64,000 nucleotides of DNA. Origin: Candidatus Hydrogenedentota bacterium. Its GTDB lineage: Bacteria; Hydrogenedentota; Hydrogenedentia; Hydrogenedentales; JAEUWI01. How positions within the stretch are numbered: the first letter of the stretch is position 1; the number at the start of each line of letters is the position of its first letter. A program made the translations under genes and the position numbers. Shown in pieces: positions 43,566-56,264 of this stretch. The notes under the pieces were generated by a model that saw only the letters and a list, made by a program, of their open reading frames with translations, did no database searches and had not been told where the DNA came from. Location: assembly GCA_016791475.1 (NCBI GenBank), contig JAEUWI010000002.1, positions 1 to 64,000 of the forward strand, in the 5' to 3' direction.

Positions 43566-43718
43566 ACGAATTCTCCGTTGATTGGGACTTTCGTAAATGG
43601 TAGCAGATTCCGCGGGGAATTTGTTGTTGATGTTTCATTCTGGAAAGCCGTCATCTTCGAGTAGAATAGCGATTCACCTATGACTCAGAACGATTGTGAC
43701 AATAAGCAGGAGAATCCC

Positions 43719-44720
43719 ATGAAAGCCGTCGGTTACTTGCAGTCCCTTCCCGTCGATGCCCCCGAGGCTCTGTTTGATTTTGAATTGCCCGTGCCGGTCG
43801 CGTCGGGACGGGATCTGCTGGTTCGCGTCGAGGCTATTTCCGTGAATCCCGTCGATGCCAAGGTGCGGAAGCGTGCGCAGCCGGAGGGGGATGAACCGAA
43901 GATTCTTGGCTGGGACGCGGCGGGGGTCGTGGAGGCGGTGGGCGATGGCGTGACGCTCTTCAAACCGGGCGATGAAGTCTGGTACGCGGGCGAATTGATG
44001 CGGCAAGGCTGCAATTCCGAATTTCATCTGGTGGACGAACGCCTCGTGGGCCGGAAGCCGAAATCGCTGAGCTTCGTTGAAGCGGCGGCGTTGCCCCTTA
44101 CTACGGTCACCGCGTGGGAAATGCTCTTCGACCGCCTGGAGATTTCAGAGTATGACCTGGGTGCGATATTGATCGTTGGCGCGGGCGGGGGCGTGGGGTC
44201 TATTCTAATCCAGCTTGCGAAGAAACTCACGTGGTTCACGGTCGTCGCAACGGCCTCGCGGCCAGAGACGGTGAAGTGGGTTAAGTCGCTGGGGGCGGAT
44301 CATGTGATCGATCACAGCAAACCGATGGTCGAGCAACTGGAGCGCATCGGTGAACCCGTCAAGTATATCGCGAGCCTGACGAACACGGGGGACTATCTGG
44401 ACCAGTACGCGACGTTGATCGCGCCGCAGGGGAAGATTGTGGTGATTGATGATCCAGCGGCCATAGATATCATGCCCTTCAAGCGGAAGAGCGTTTCGTG
44501 GCATTGGGAATTGATGTTTACACGGTCGCTGTTTCGGACCGAGGACATGATCAAGCAGCATGAGATGCTCAATCGTGTGTCCGAGTTGGTCGATAGCGGC
44601 GATATCAAGACGACCGTCGCTGAGGACTTTGGCACGATCAACGCCGCGAATCTACTGAAGGCGCATGCGCTGCTGGAGAGTGGCAAGTCGCGGGGGAAGA
44701 TCGTGCTGAGTGGGTTTTAG
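43719..44720 (+). CDS. Zinc-type alcohol dehydrogenase-like (quinone oxidoreductase) protein
   Basis: The ATG at 43719 follows AGGAG and gives 333 residues. The N-terminal catalytic fold has RDLLVRVEAISVNPVDAKVRKR and ILGWDAAGVVEAVGDGVTLFKPGDEVW; the nucleotide-binding fold has LIVGAGGGVGSILIQLAKKL. No structural zinc cysteines are evident, which places it with the quinone oxidoreductase/zeta-crystallin-like group of the medium-chain dehydrogenases that use NADPH. It is close to the ZADH-type oxidoreductase family. It stands alone and is divergent from vapBC. Substrate unknown. Confidence 0.85.
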   Translation: MKAVGYLQSLPVDAPEALFDFELPVPVASGRDLLVRVEAISVNPVDAKVRKRAQPEGDEPKILGWDAAGVVEAVGDGVTLFKPGDEVWYAGELMRQGCNSEFHLVDERLVGRKPKSLSFVEAAALPLTTVTAWEMLFDRLEISEYDLGAILIVGAGGGVGSILIQLAKKLTWFTVVATASRPETVKWVKSLGADHVIDHSKPMVEQLERIGEPVKYIASLTNTGDYLDQYATLIAPQGKIVVIDDPAAIDIMPFKRKSVSWHWELMFTRSLFRTEDMIKQHEMLNRVSELVDSGDIKTTVAEDFGTINAANLLKAHALLESGKSRGKIVLSGF

Positions 44721-44934: not shown

Positions 44935-45093
44935 CTGAACCACGAATGGACACGAATTTACACGAATAAGAATTGGACATCGCTCCGCAATCAGGTTTGA
45001 GAGCTAACCACAAAGAACGCAAAGAGCACAAAGTGTTTTGTTGCCGTGTGCCGTTCTCTTATTCGTGTGAATTCGTGTCCATTCGTGGTTCAG
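44935..45093. repeat. Long inverted repeat built of 10-bp-period CACGAAT units
   Basis: The left arm (44935-44970) holds three CACGAAT heptamers spaced exactly 10 bases apart, preceded by CTGAAC. The right arm (45058-45093) is its reverse complement with one mismatch in 36. The loop contains a second array, CACAAAG/CGCAAAG/CACAAAG, at 9-base intervals (45009-45035). A related element is at 56061-56264. Confidence 0.75.
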
Positions 45094-45234: not shown

Positions 45235-46458
45235 TCACTTCTCGCTCAGGAAATCCACCATACGCTTGATGCCGCCGAGGGTCATGTCTTCCATGTGGAA
45301 GATGTTCCGGATCTGGTTCAGCGTGTAGTATCCGTAGGTGTCTTTCCAGAGCTCTTTGGAGATGGGGTTGAGCCAGCAGGTGTGTGGGAAGCGCTCGGCG
45401 AATCGGTTGAGCCAGTAGAGGCTGGGGCGCTGGTCGCCGCCGCCGTAGTTGGTGATGGCGCCGCCGTGAGATACGAGCTCTTCGGGGGCCATGGAGGCGT
45501 CGCCGAAGATGACCACGCGGGTATCGTTGCGCCGCTGGAGGAGCAACTCAGTCGGGTGGGCGCGGAGGCGCCGGAAGTCGGTCCAGACGCTCTCGTAGAT
45601 CGTGTTGTGGAAGTAGTAGACCTGCAGGTCTTCAAAGCGCTCGTGGAGCTTGGTGAAGAGGAGGCGCGTGATCTCGACGAAGGGCGTCATGGAATAGCCG
45701 CCGTTGTCGATGAGCAGCACCACGCTGATCTTGTCGCGCAGGTCGCGCTCGAAGCAGAGATCGATATCGCCGCCGTTGCGGGCCGTGTTGCGGATGGTGT
45801 CGTCCAGGTTCAGGCGATCCCGAGGGCCTTCGTTTTTCATGTGCTTCATGGATTCGAGGGCCTGGCGCAGGTTTTCCGCGCGGAGCTGCTGGGTGTCGGC
45901 GTATTCCACGTAGCGGCGATCGCCGATGGCCTTCAGGGCACTGCGGTTGCGCGACTCGCCCTCCACGCGGATGCCCCGCTCGGAGTTGCCGCTGTGGCCG
46001 AAGGGGGAATTGCCCCGCTGGCCGATCCATTTGCTGCCGCCCGCGTGGGCTTCCATCTGCTCCCGCACCGTCTCCCAGAATTTCGCCATGAGCTCTTCGG
46101 GATCGTAATGCCAGACGGCCTTCTTCGGAATTTTGCCCTCGGCAATCTGCTGCTGGAGCCATTCCTTGAATTGCTTCGTGTTGAAGAGGGCAAAATCGCC
46201 CTCGGCCACGGGCGGAATGTCGATGCCGTAGAAATAGAAGCAGAAGGCGCGCTCGAAGGCGTCCATGTACTCCACCTTGCGCACGAAAACGAGTCGCGCA
46301 AAGACAAAGAGGTCGTCGAGATCCTTGACCAGCCCCTTCTCCAGTCCCTCGTTCAACTCCAGCAGATCCTTCGGGCTCACGGGCACGCCATACTCGCGGA
46401 GGCGGTAGACGAAGTCCATGAAGAGGACGTTGCTGTAGTCCGGCGAGACCGTGAGCAT
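45235..46458 (-). CDS. VWA-domain protein (CoxE-like), partner of MoxR ATPase
   Basis: The 407-residue protein begins with a CoxE-like N-terminal part (FVYRLREYGVPVSPKDLLELNEGL), then a von Willebrand A-like domain (about 235-395). The metal site normally DxSxS reads DNGGYS in LLIDNGGYSMTPF, so metal ligation may be weakened. Such proteins work with MoxR AAA+ ATPases in maturation of enzymes or envelope complexes. The ATG overlaps the MoxR stop (TGATG), giving one transcription unit. Target of the pair is unknown. Confidence 0.8.
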   Translation of the reverse strand: MLTVSPDYSNVLFMDFVYRLREYGVPVSPKDLLELNEGLEKGLVKDLDDLFVFARLVFVRKVEYMDAFERAFCFYFYGIDIPPVAEGDFALFNTKQFKEWLQQQIAEGKIPKKAVWHYDPEELMAKFWETVREQMEAHAGGSKWIGQRGNSPFGHSGNSERGIRVEGESRNRSALKAIGDRRYVEYADTQQLRAENLRQALESMKHMKNEGPRDRLNLDDTIRNTARNGGDIDLCFERDLRDKISVVLLIDNGGYSMTPFVEITRLLFTKLHERFEDLQVYYFHNTIYESVWTDFRRLRAHPTELLLQRRNDTRVVIFGDASMAPEELVSHGGAITNYGGGDQRPSLYWLNRFAERFPHTCWLNPISKELWKDTYGYYTLNQIRNIFHMEDMTLGGIKRMVDFLSEK

Positions 46459-47300
46459 CAGTAGCTCGAGCCCCGGGACTTGCCCGCGCCGCCGCCGCGA
46501 TAGCGCAGGATGTCGCCCGCGCGTTTCAGCAGGGCGCCGGTGAGGGGCGGCATTTCCCGCGTGGGCACCTGGCCCGTGGCCTCCAGCGCGCCGATCCAGT
46601 CGAGGAGCTCGCTCGTCGCCGGGGGCTTTTCAAAGCCGCGCTCGCGGAGTTCGTAAAAGATGTTGATGGCGGCCTCCAGCAGCTTCGGGCTCGTCTGGGG
46701 GTAGTGGAGGTTCACGATCTGCTTCATGTCGTCCCTCGAAGGGAAGGCGATGTGGTGACAGTAGCAGCGGCGCAGGAATGGATCGGAAAGCTCGCGCTTG
46801 GCGTTGGACGTGATGAAGATCGCCGGGCGTACCTTGGCTTTGATGGTGTCGTTCACCTCGCGGATGGTGAACTGGCAGTCTTCGAGAATATCCAGAAGGT
46901 TGTCCTGTACGTCCGATTCCGTCTTGTCCACTTCGTCCAGCAGCAGCACCACCTTCTTGTCCGTGCGGAAGGCGCGGCCGATGGGGCCCCAGATGACGTA
47001 GTCGTAGAAGCTTTCCACATTGCGGCCCGAGTTGCCGCCGCCAAAGCGGGCGTCGTTCAGGCGGAGGACCGTGTCCTGCGTGTAGCAGGCCTCCTCCCCT
47101 TTGATGGTGGATTTGCAGCGGAGGATTTCCACGTCCATCCCCAGCGAGCGGGCCACTTCCATGGCGAGCTGGGTCTTGCCCGTGCCCGCCTCGCCCGTGA
47201 GCAGGAGGGGTTTTTCCATCGTCAGGGCAATATTGACGATGGCCTTAAGCTCGGGGTCGAGGTAATACTGGTCGGTGCCTTCAAAGTGCTGGATGGTCAT
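46458..47300 (-). CDS. MoxR-family AAA+ ATPase
   Basis: The 280-residue protein has Walker A GEAGTGKT (residues 36-43), Walker B VVLLLDEVDK (about 117-126) and sensor 1 ITSNAKRELSDPFLRRC. The arginine pair in FLRRC is the MoxR arginine finger region. MoxR ATPases act as chaperones with a VWA protein encoded next door, as here. The first about 45 codons (47161-47300) are repeated at 48696-48831, disrupted there. Confidence 0.85.
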   Translation of the reverse strand: MTIQHFEGTDQYYLDPELKAIVNIALTMEKPLLLTGEAGTGKTQLAMEVARSLGMDVEILRCKSTIKGEEACYTQDTVLRLNDARFGGGNSGRNVESFYDYVIWGPIGRAFRTDKKVVLLLDEVDKTESDVQDNLLDILEDCQFTIREVNDTIKAKVRPAIFITSNAKRELSDPFLRRCYCHHIAFPSRDDMKQIVNLHYPQTSPKLLEAAINIFYELRERGFEKPPATSELLDWIGALEATGQVPTREMPPLTGALLKRAGDILRYRGGGAGKSRGSSY

Positions 47301-47502: not shown

Positions 47503-48735
47503 ATGAATGGGAGAAAACTGCTAATCTGCGTGTGGTGTGCCGCCGTCGTTGCGGTGTGTCTCTCGTTTTTTCTACTGGGGTATGGCCGGACTTGGCGACT
47601 ATGGGGCGTTCCCGTAATGTCTCCCCATTTTGGTGATGCGCGAGTCATACTCAGTGGTGCGGAGTCATTGTCACGTGGCTACGACCCGCTCGTAAGCAAT
47701 CCGATGGATCCGTGGTTGCGTCCAATGAATTATCCGCGAATCTGGCTAATTCCAGGTTGGTGTGGACTTGACCAGGATTACACTACCATCGTGGGCCTTG
47801 TCCTGATTTCGTCCTTCTTCTTTGGCGTTTTTCTACTGTCCGAGGGCATTGACCGAAGCGCAGCCTGGATTTTAGCCATATGCCTTTTTTCGCCGGCCGT
47901 GATGTTTGGGATTGAACGCGCCAACAACGATCTGGCCGTTTTCTGCCTGGTTTCTCTGGCGGCTTACCTCTATGGGAGATTTCCGATTCCAGCACTGATT
48001 TGTCTGGGGCTGGGCGGCGTCTTGAAACTCTTTCCCTTTATGGGATTCGCCTTGCTCTTCCGGGAGGACCGTGGCCGCCGCTTCTTCCGCCTTGCAATAC
48101 CTTGCGCGGCGTTTTCGACAGCGTATTTCATTTGGACGCGGGACGATATTCGTTTGATTGGGGCGGCTACTCCGCAAAGCACACGGTTATCCTACGGCGC
48201 CAAAGTCGTCTGGATGGCGGTGCGCGAACATTACAACGCGCCGCTGGCCTCCCATGCGGTCGCCGCGTTCTCGTATGGGGTGGTCGCCCTCGCAATGGTC
48301 ATTGCAGTTAAGTTACTCGGGCGTGACCACCGTTCGCGCGACGTCGCCAATAAAGGTCATCTGAGCGCGTTTCGCGCAGGCTCCGCGATCTATCTTGGCT
48401 CATTTTTCCTTACTTCAAATTGGGATTACCGATTGATGTTCTTGCTCATGACCATTCCAACGCTCAGTGGATGGGCGCGAAATCGGGACCGGCTCGCGGG
48501 GCGGATTGCCGTGATTGCTCTTCCGGCAATCCTTTTTGCCTGCTGGTCGCTCGGATTTCGTGCCTACCTGTTCAAGTTGGGCGCGCCCATGTCGGTCTGG
48601 TTCGTAGCCGATCAGTTCTCAAAATGGGTCGTTTTCGTATCGCTGCTAAGCGCTTTCGCTTGTACCTTACCGGACTGGGTGTGTCGGCCACCGCTATGGC
48701 GAGCTGGGTCTTGCCCGTGCCCGCCTCGCCCATGA
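47503..48735 (+). CDS. GT87-like membrane glycosyltransferase, 3' end altered
   Basis: The ATG at 47503 (with GGAGG before it) gives 410 residues with about eight to ten membrane helices and the mannosyltransferase/GT87 (DUF2029) pattern. Examples are GDARVILSGAESLSRGYDPLV in the first loop, with acidic Asp residues, and GIERANNDLAVFCLV. The known family uses lipid-linked mannose. The last 14 codons (LWRAGSCPCPPRP) are encoded by the moxR duplicate that begins at 48696, so the native end was probably lost or replaced. The gene looks lower in GC than its neighbours. It appears foreign or recently inserted. Confidence 0.65.
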   Translation: MNGRKLLICVWCAAVVAVCLSFFLLGYGRTWRLWGVPVMSPHFGDARVILSGAESLSRGYDPLVSNPMDPWLRPMNYPRIWLIPGWCGLDQDYTTIVGLVLISSFFFGVFLLSEGIDRSAAWILAICLFSPAVMFGIERANNDLAVFCLVSLAAYLYGRFPIPALICLGLGGVLKLFPFMGFALLFREDRGRRFFRLAIPCAAFSTAYFIWTRDDIRLIGAATPQSTRLSYGAKVVWMAVREHYNAPLASHAVAAFSYGVVALAMVIAVKLLGRDHRSRDVANKGHLSAFRAGSAIYLGSFFLTSNWDYRLMFLLMTIPTLSGWARNRDRLAGRIAVIALPAILFACWSLGFRAYLFKLGAPMSVWFVADQFSKWVVFVSLLSAFACTLPDWVCRPPLWRAGSCPCPPRP

Positions 48736-48831
48736 GCAGGTTTTTTTGATGGTCAGGGCAATATTGACGATGGCCTTGAGCTCGGGGTCGAGGTAATACT
48801 GGTCGGTGCCTTCAAAATGCGGTATAGCCAT
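48696..48831 (-). pseudogene. Truncated, frameshifted duplicate of moxR 5' end
   Basis: The minus-strand reading from the ATG at 48831 starts MAIPHFEGTDQYYLDPELKAI, nearly the same as MoxR's start, then breaks frame because of small deletions near 48742. It covers about 45 codons and cannot make MoxR. The copy extends to 48893 into the leader. Confidence 0.8.
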
Positions 48832-49000
48832 GACGGGGACGGGATGCTCCGGGAATTGGGGGTATGGGCCTGTCTGGGTATAGTTCAAGGCACCCGGAAT
48901 TGGACTTTGATCGTTTTGATTTCGTGACTTTTGGCCTCGATGGCCCGTAAGTAAGTGTCATCCGGGACTGCCTCCCGCCGGAGGGTTCGCCTGGCCGCGT

Positions 49001-49440
49001 GAATTGAAATCTTGGCATGACACTCCGAGATTTCACTAATAAACGATATGCTCTTGCCATTTTAGTTGGTAATCCATAGACAAAAGTGAGAAATATATTC
49101 ATCGCATTAAAATTACATCGTCATGCCTTGCAATTTCTATGCATTTCCCCAGTTTTTGGCGAAGGATTGACCGGGGTGGGACGGTCTGGGGAGCGCGCTA
49201 TCCACCTGAACGGGTACTTTCCGACGCGAATCTGAACCAGGATGATCATTGAAATCTCGGAGTTACACTCCGAGATTTCAATGATCAATTCAGGGATCTT
49301 TATAATCTCATTTTTCTCATATTAAATCTTGTTCATTCATGTAACTTATTCAAAAACAATATATTATAAAGTGAATATGCTTTTATCGATTTTCATTTAT
49401 CATTGAAATCTCGGAGTGTAAGTCTGGATTTTCAATGATC
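49001..49440. repeat. Array of three TTGAAATCTCGGAG hairpins
   Basis: The central copy (49244-49286) is a perfect 20-bp inverted repeat with a three-base loop. The left copy (49001-49035) has arms TGAAATCTTGG and CCGAGATTTCA. The right copy (49399-49440) starts with the same TCATTGAAATCTCGGAGT but its right arm is degenerate, pairing over TCATTGAAA only. Spacing is irregular (about 243 and 155 bases), so this is not a CRISPR array. All copies lie upstream of the DUF4143 gene. Confidence 0.8.
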
Positions 49441-56060: not shown

Positions 56061-56264
56061 GAACCGCGAATGAACGCGAATCATTTGTGTGGTGTAGTAA
56101 ACGCAGTTTTGCGGTCCAGTGTAACAAAAGTTTTCCCACAGATTTTCACAGATCTGCACAGATGGGACCAGATCGAATGGCAACGTGCACGAGTTTTCGG
56201 TTGGCCTCAGAACGGTACTGCATCGTTTTTAATTCGCGTATATTCGCGTCCATTCGCGGTTCAG
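56061..56264. repeat. Inverted repeat of 10-bp-period CGCGAAT units
   Basis: The left arm (56061-56081) has two CGCGAAT units at 10-base spacing. The right arm (56232-56264) has three reversed units at 10-base spacing, then a closing CAG. The arms pair over 20 of 21 bases. Between them is an independent triple array of CACAGAT at exact 10-base spacing (56137-56166). The element resembles 44935-45093 with CGCGAAT in place of CACGAAT. Confidence 0.72.

Follow-up and report, generated by a model that had tools for sequence, protein, structure and literature searches.

Facing three-heptamer arrays in a Candidatus Hydrogenedentota genome: a probable gene-less copy of an element linked to the GxxExxY nuclease family

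The window, i.e., the whole stretch of 64,000 nucleotides that was analysed, lies on contig C2 of a draft MAG of 7.7 Mb in 529 contigs (G000). Between two convergent genes, it carries a pair of short repeat arrays that face each other. The left neighbour is a quinone-oxidoreductase-like/zinc-type alcohol dehydrogenase gene (43680-44720, + strand), which ends 215 bp before the pair, and the right neighbour is a VWA/CoxE-like gene (45235-46458, − strand), both named from sequence without a domain scan. The left array (44935-44971, +) contains three CACGAAT heptamers (44941-44947, 44951-44957 and 44961-44967) at a period of 10/10, with AACC outermost. The right array (45057-45093, −) is its inverted counterpart, with heptamers at 45061-45067, 45071-45077 and 45081-45087. 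Read from the outside inwards, both arms are CTGAAC-CACGAAT-GGA-CACGAAT-TYA-CACGAAT-AAGA with a single-base difference; each one is 37 nt long, 36 of the 37 positions are complementary, and 85 nt (44972-45056) separate them. The inverted array at an exact 10-bp period described in an earlier sequence-only reading is, thus, present and far above chance, and the arm of 36 nt and distance of 87 nt given there differ from our values only by where the arm end is drawn. The same reading pointed out a triple array at 9-base spacing in the loop. It is found at 45009-45033 (+, period 9/9) as CACAAAG-CGCAAAG-CACAAAG, a single array of another sub-family nested in the pair, and in other copies (L036, L038 and L056) this type makes its own facing pair. 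Beside or downstream of the orthologous VWA gene, an array is absent in three congeners, in which the other neighbour is not alignable.

Nesting of sub-families is observed in a second element of the window (56065-56258), where a CGCGAAT pair, formed by a left array at about 56065 (+) with a degenerate third heptamer and a right array at 56232-56258 (−), surrounds a CACAGAT array at 56137-56163 (+). The window also holds an ORF (48694-48888) that repeats the start of an AAA-ATPase (46458-47300; HFEGTDQYYLDPELKAIVNIALT), a partial duplication, and, at 49020-49421, inverted and direct repeats clustered around TGAAATCTCGGAGT.

A search for all copies, which had been proposed together with the idea of a dispersed family, confirmed that the window pair is one among dozens in its genome. 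The census was based on searches and on about 0.8 Mb of extracted sequence. The window element gave 110 BLAST matches against its own genome, and exact copies of ACCACGAATNNNCACGAATNNNCACGAAT number 28 genome-wide, compared to 0 for the reversed-pattern control. Fuzzy CRCRRAN triple arrays amounted to 103 in 785 kb, a sample mostly picked around known copies that gives no density estimate, whereas three shuffles gave 1, 1 and 2 and the reversed sequence 0. About ten sub-families can be distinguished, each with a characteristic heptamer (about CRCNRAN) and a characteristic period (8/8, 8/9, 9/9, 9/10 or 10/10). The 10/10 period is that of CACGAAT, CACGGAA, CGCGAAT, CGCAAAT and CACAGAT; CACGGAT has 9/10, CACAAAG-CGCAAAG-CACAAAG 9/9, CACGAAG 8/9 or 9/9, and CGCAAAG-CGCGAAG-CGCAAAG 8/8. 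The outermost position in the arrays is taken by AACC or a similar sequence, and about 92% of the arrays are not within predicted genes (a rough gene caller places 8 of 103 inside). When two CACGAAT arrays are neighbours within 700 bp, they form a facing pair in 13 of 14 cases and lie on the same strand in the other one. The family would have been called into question by a random period or by mostly unpaired arms, and neither was found: the CACGAAT period is fixed and the copies are mostly paired and facing.

The near-identity of the two arms had been taken to imply recent transposition or selection. This does not follow, as arms are equally alike between pairs. Within the 13 CACGAAT pairs, spacers agree at 4.15 of 6 positions, compared to 4.24 when arms are randomly re-paired (p = 0.71), and the whole 27 nt give 24.5 within pairs versus 24.7 re-paired (p = 0.74). 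Since likeness within pairs is no higher than between pairs, the near-identity reflects the family consensus, and neither a hairpin constraint nor recent copying from arm to arm explains it. The suggestion that the heptamers lie on one face of the helix does not hold as a general rule, because periods of 8, 9 and 10 are comparably frequent among gene-linked arrays (106, 156 and 109, respectively). It is very improbable that the window pair is a transcription terminator or an mRNA-stabilising hairpin at gene ends. Its position between convergent genes and a strong predicted fold (−81.5 kcal/mol, z = −12.3) would favor such a role, but the arms do not co-evolve, interiors reach up to 500 bp, and convergent gaps are not enriched (4 of 40 array-bearing gaps against 40 of 206 gaps). 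A structured RNA or hairpin element was likewise rejected, as there is no Rfam match and the arms of the CACGAAT pairs do not co-vary.

A linked protein, the existence of which had been raised as a question for the flanks, was found on a different contig of the same genome. There, a facing CACGAAT pair (G000:C15:48318-48880) surrounds a 126-aa ORF, which is the cognate GxxExxY gene of this sub-family (G000:C15:48461-48817). Its product matches TIGR04256 (E 8.5e-35, 119.6 bits versus a curated cut-off of 35) and PF13366 PDDEXK_3 (E 1.8e-31, 109.4 bits versus a cut-off of 22), that is, a PD-(D/E)XK nuclease family. The genome encodes six GxxExxY genes. Arrays adjoin all six and facing arrays bracket five, which belong to five different sub-families: CACGAAT (C15), CACGAAG (C55), CACGGAG (C23), CGCAAAT (C50) and CACAGAT (C43). 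The sixth gene (C9) lies between CGCAAAG/CGCTAAG-type repeats, of which only the right one falls under the strict array definition. Gene-less arrays are far more numerous than genes in this genome (139 versus 6). The interiors of gene-less copies are mostly unrelated to one another and hold no gene remnant, so these copies are not simple internal deletions; in the 85-nt interior of the window element, a GxxExxY remnant was likewise not detected.

Across the phylum, represented by 68 genomes that all belong to one order, GxxExxY is encoded in 58 of 68 genomes and generic arrays are present in 58 of 68. The counts of genes and arrays are correlated (Spearman 0.61, p = 3e-8), while presence or absence alone gives no significant association (p = 0.11). 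For 106 gene copies, 500 bp of sequence was available at either end. Facing arrays bracket 52 of these copies, 31 have an array on one side and 23 have none by the strict definition, these last ones counting against a mobile-element reading. As a comparison, random 345-bp positions drawn from array-rich sequence of the window's genome were bracketed in 62 of 20000 cases (0.3%). Five genomes encode a close CACGAAT-type gene, and 4 of them contain exact CACGAAT arrays, compared to 7 of the 63 others (p = 0.002), where close means above a 60% identity line that was drawn after the matches were known. Three genomes (G025, G035 and G036) have many CACGAAT arrays and no close gene, and the correspondence of one gene to one array across genomes holds only partly. 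One further genome (G031) contains 73 generic arrays and no GxxExxY gene, pointing to orphaned arrays or a different driver. At one locus (L163, 5397-5795), the N-terminus of the GxxExxY protein (MNHELTRMNTN...) is encoded by the end array, so that gene and end overlap in some copies. Gene callers can, in general, read arrays as N-terminal extensions or spurious proteins.

The unit and the period of the arrays vary with the phylogeny of the protein and not with that of the organisms. Left and right arrays of a gene agree in unit at 0.942, compared to 0.708 when shuffled (maximum 0.774), and in period at 0.926 compared to 0.219. Between different families, protein identity correlates with unit identity (r = 0.45) and with period (r = 0.31), values reached in 0 of 2000 permutations each. 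On a tree of 109 proteins from this and other phyla, built from 123 columns and with many weak inner branches, the seventh heptamer base requires 6 changes (shuffled minimum 34), the whole unit 43 (78) and the period 31 (57). The search pattern fixed heptamer positions 1, 3 and 6 and admitted only purines at 2 and 5; therefore, the least constrained tests are those of positions 4 and 7 and of the spacing. The window's sub-family falls in a small group of Hydrogenedentota, three Acidobacteria, Nitrosomonas (CACTAAT) and Lentisphaerae, and a second CACGAAT group comprises Gallionellaceae, Planctomycetota and Hydrogenophilales. Linked inheritance alone could account for part of the co-variation signal, yet arrays remain recognisable at 40-60% protein identity. 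At the level of sequence comparison, we regard as demonstrated that arrays and gene are linked and co-vary, and that each sub-family goes with its own GxxExxY branch across phyla.

This co-variation weighs on another explanation, according to which a RAYT-like Y1 transposase or some other factor dispersed the arrays as an independent repeat, and GxxExxY was only captured between them. The best known precedent is the REP/RAYT system (REPtron), in which REPs, palindromes of 20-40 bp with a GTAG or CGTC foot, are associated with a Y1 (HUH) transposase (PMC3733652). Like the arrays, they are high-copy and intergenic, often form inverted pairs and occur as several families per genome (PMC3733652), and copies flank the gene of a DNA-processing enzyme as arrays flank GxxExxY. 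Moreover, Y1_Tnp genes are common in the phylum (54 of 68 genomes), and the large excess of gene-less arrays would fit an independent repeat. Nevertheless, we think that this explanation is improbable. Arrays bracket none of 17 Y1_Tnp loci, across phyla they change in unit and period along with the GxxExxY tree, the linked enzyme is of the PD-(D/E)XK type, and an array end consists of three direct heptamers behind AACC, without a palindrome or a GTAG/CGTC foot. The likeness of the element design to REP/RAYT is in logic only. The arrays lack a defining feature of each of REP/RAYT, classical IS/MITE elements and RNA families.

The boundaries of the elements are informative in this regard. A complete element is formed by an array, the GxxExxY gene and an inverted array, usually in about 0.45-0.8 kb. 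In 115 ordered pairs of gene-bearing copies with unrelated flanks, homology ended inside the element in 198 of 230 cases, at 15 bp or less from the outer edge in 30 and beyond it in 2; for instance, the G011 and G012 copies are 87% identical from array to array only, and their flanks differ. The facing arrays are, thus, terminal inverted repeats that bound a homologous unit, as in IS elements and MITEs, with which the elements also have in common full copies with one gene and gene-less copies. They differ from these in that gene-less copies have no common interior, that the full copies carry no recognised transposase but only the PD-(D/E)XK nuclease between the ends, and that target duplications, which the sequence-only reading proposed to look for, were not detected, direct repeats at the flanks of 64 elements being no commoner than expected. 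A clean empty site was not found among the loci compared (the window locus, G005:C157/G006 and G011:C108/G012). At the G005:C157 site, the element is complete in G005, and in G006 the gene is missing and a remnant of the right array is left. At the site in G012 (contigs C541 and C450) that corresponds to G011:C108, the left flank leads into group II intron-like sequence, recognised by eye only, and the right flank retains the last bases of the array.

It has also been observed that GxxExxY genes share a locus across genomes of different families (L246/L259/L269, and L234/L271/L300 with the array-less L230). Some elements can, therefore, persist for long, hinting at long-kept, perhaps resident, copies, and this pattern also fits a resident function. 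In such a case, GxxExxY would be a resident or defence nuclease and the arrays immunity, decoy or regulatory binding sites instead of transposon ends. The gene lies on chromosomes and is hardly ever found on plasmids or in phages, its predicted fold is that of recombination/processing nucleases, and the Rpn PD-(D/E)XK proteins, for which the name transposase had been used, have since been reported to be toxin-antitoxin systems directed against phages (PMC10327210). We consider a resident role unlikely, given that unit and period are those of the gene's own two ends, which face each other and where homology stops, that copies lie at unrelated loci, and that the distribution is patchy and cross-phylum.

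Concerning this distribution, the genomes with an exact CACGAAT array among the matches listed belong, by their genome labels, to Verrucomicrobia, Victivallales/Lentisphaeria, Kiritimatiellae, Planctomycetota, Hydrogenedentota, Sumerlaeota, Acidobacteria, Armatimonadetes, Chloroflexi, Desulfobacterales, Bacteroidales, Gamma- and Betaproteobacteria (Nitrosomonas, Gallionellaceae and Thiosymbion) and one Clostridiales MAG. GxxExxY is encoded in 32 of 33 CACGAAT-bearing genomes tested, mostly of other phyla and picked because they carry the window's array, the exception being the Clostridiales MAG. Arrays lie at both ends of the best gene in 20 of 31 rows, among which the Gallionellaceae, Planctomycetota and Nitrosomonas loci are listed twice. 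None of 14 control genomes, the only array-free test outside the phylum, has TIGR04256 above the cut-off. A phage or plasmid vehicle was rejected on account of the near absence of the gene from both; no GxxExxY gene was confirmed in viral contigs, 16 of which contain the array.

The catalytic residues of the GxxExxY protein are intact. In the 109-protein alignment, the E of GxxExxY (E27), D66, E/D76 and K78 are invariant, and a QxxxY motif hardly varies. Of five AF2 models, only one had good quality (pLDDT 84.8, pTM 0.77; about 40 for the other four). Matches of this model to lambda exonuclease, LHK-Exo and Cas4 SSO0001 have a probability of 1.00, but E-values of only 1e-3 to 1e-2. Two viral proteins, one of which is a PD-(D/E)XK nuclease, are matched more strongly, and no convincing sequence relatives were found in the PDB. 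The fold is, thus, predicted to be lambda-exonuclease/Cas4-like. GxxExxY has this predicted fold and motifs including QxxxY in common with Cas4, lambda exonuclease and RecB-like nucleases, but it comprises about 125 aa, is array-bounded and is not beside Cas1 at the loci examined.

In our opinion, the window feature is probably, at roughly 70%, a gene-less copy of a small, array-bounded, nuclease-linked mobile element. Several observations count against this reading: neither a clean empty site nor a target duplication at the loci compared, array-rich genomes in which a close gene is missing, gene-less interiors free of gene remnants, loci shared across families, the scarcity of the gene on plasmids and in phages, and the draft state of the assembly. 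As both CACGAAT ends are present, no gene remnant is seen and the cognate gene lies on C15, we conclude that this copy is non-autonomous or decayed, its gene having been lost or never present. The GxxExxY protein would recognise the three heptamers of its own sub-family and cut or process DNA at these arrays, and cutting might mobilise or copy the DNA between two facing arrays. Gene-less copies may then be moved in trans by the cognate protein, here that of G000:C15:48461-48817, or be decayed remnants. For movement, we infer it from copies at different loci with unrelated flanks. A wider proposal, to which we give even odds, is that of a transposase-free class of mobile elements in many bacterial phyla, moved by a Cas4/lambda-exonuclease-like nuclease of ~125 residues that reads a protein-specific three-heptamer code (letters and spacing), with distinct sub-families residing together in a genome and amplifying gene-less copies.

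We found no published description of the arrays or their sequences in the open-access literature, and nothing on GxxExxY beyond two passing mentions. The newness lies in the nuclease family involved, in the way the arrays are built and in the code. A family on which hardly anything has been published gains a functional hypothesis, and arrays present by the dozens in genomes of many environmental phyla gain an identity. Besides, the natural co-variation of heptamer, spacing and protein offers a ready-made specificity code. If the nuclease moves the element, we would be dealing with a type of mobile element that has no known transposase; if movement were disproved, an undescribed nuclease-repeat association would still stand. 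Partial parallels exist. The Thiomargarita hupL MITE, a dispersed element with inverted repeats, was proposed to be linked to PD-(D/E)XK_2 (YhgA-like) genes (PMC4853749), but this is another nuclease family, and the hupL element has 10-bp direct and 19-bp inverted repeats. The Rpn (YhgA-like) PD-(D/E)XK proteins are likewise tied to DNA mobility, but belong to a different family (PF04754), and the abstracts mention no linked array (PMC5350276). The TAACTGA repeats of Beggiatoaceae are also intergenic direct heptamers with a patchy cross-phylum distribution, but the heptamer is another one, its copies number two to six (up to 43), and they are hardly ever inverted (PMC4679880). They lie mostly just before start codons, and a linked nuclease is unreported (PMC4679880).

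Other repeats were encountered in the window's genome. A very abundant 9-bp tandem repeat of the ATGGGTCTT / GACCCATAA type, unrelated to the arrays, provides the commonest units among exact heptamer triples in the extracted loci, of which 1462 of 1976 have a period of 9/9. In three interiors (L030, L031 and L046), there is a repeat of roughly 206 bp with GC-rich inverted repeats, one junction of which lies within a CACGAAT-like heptamer in all three.
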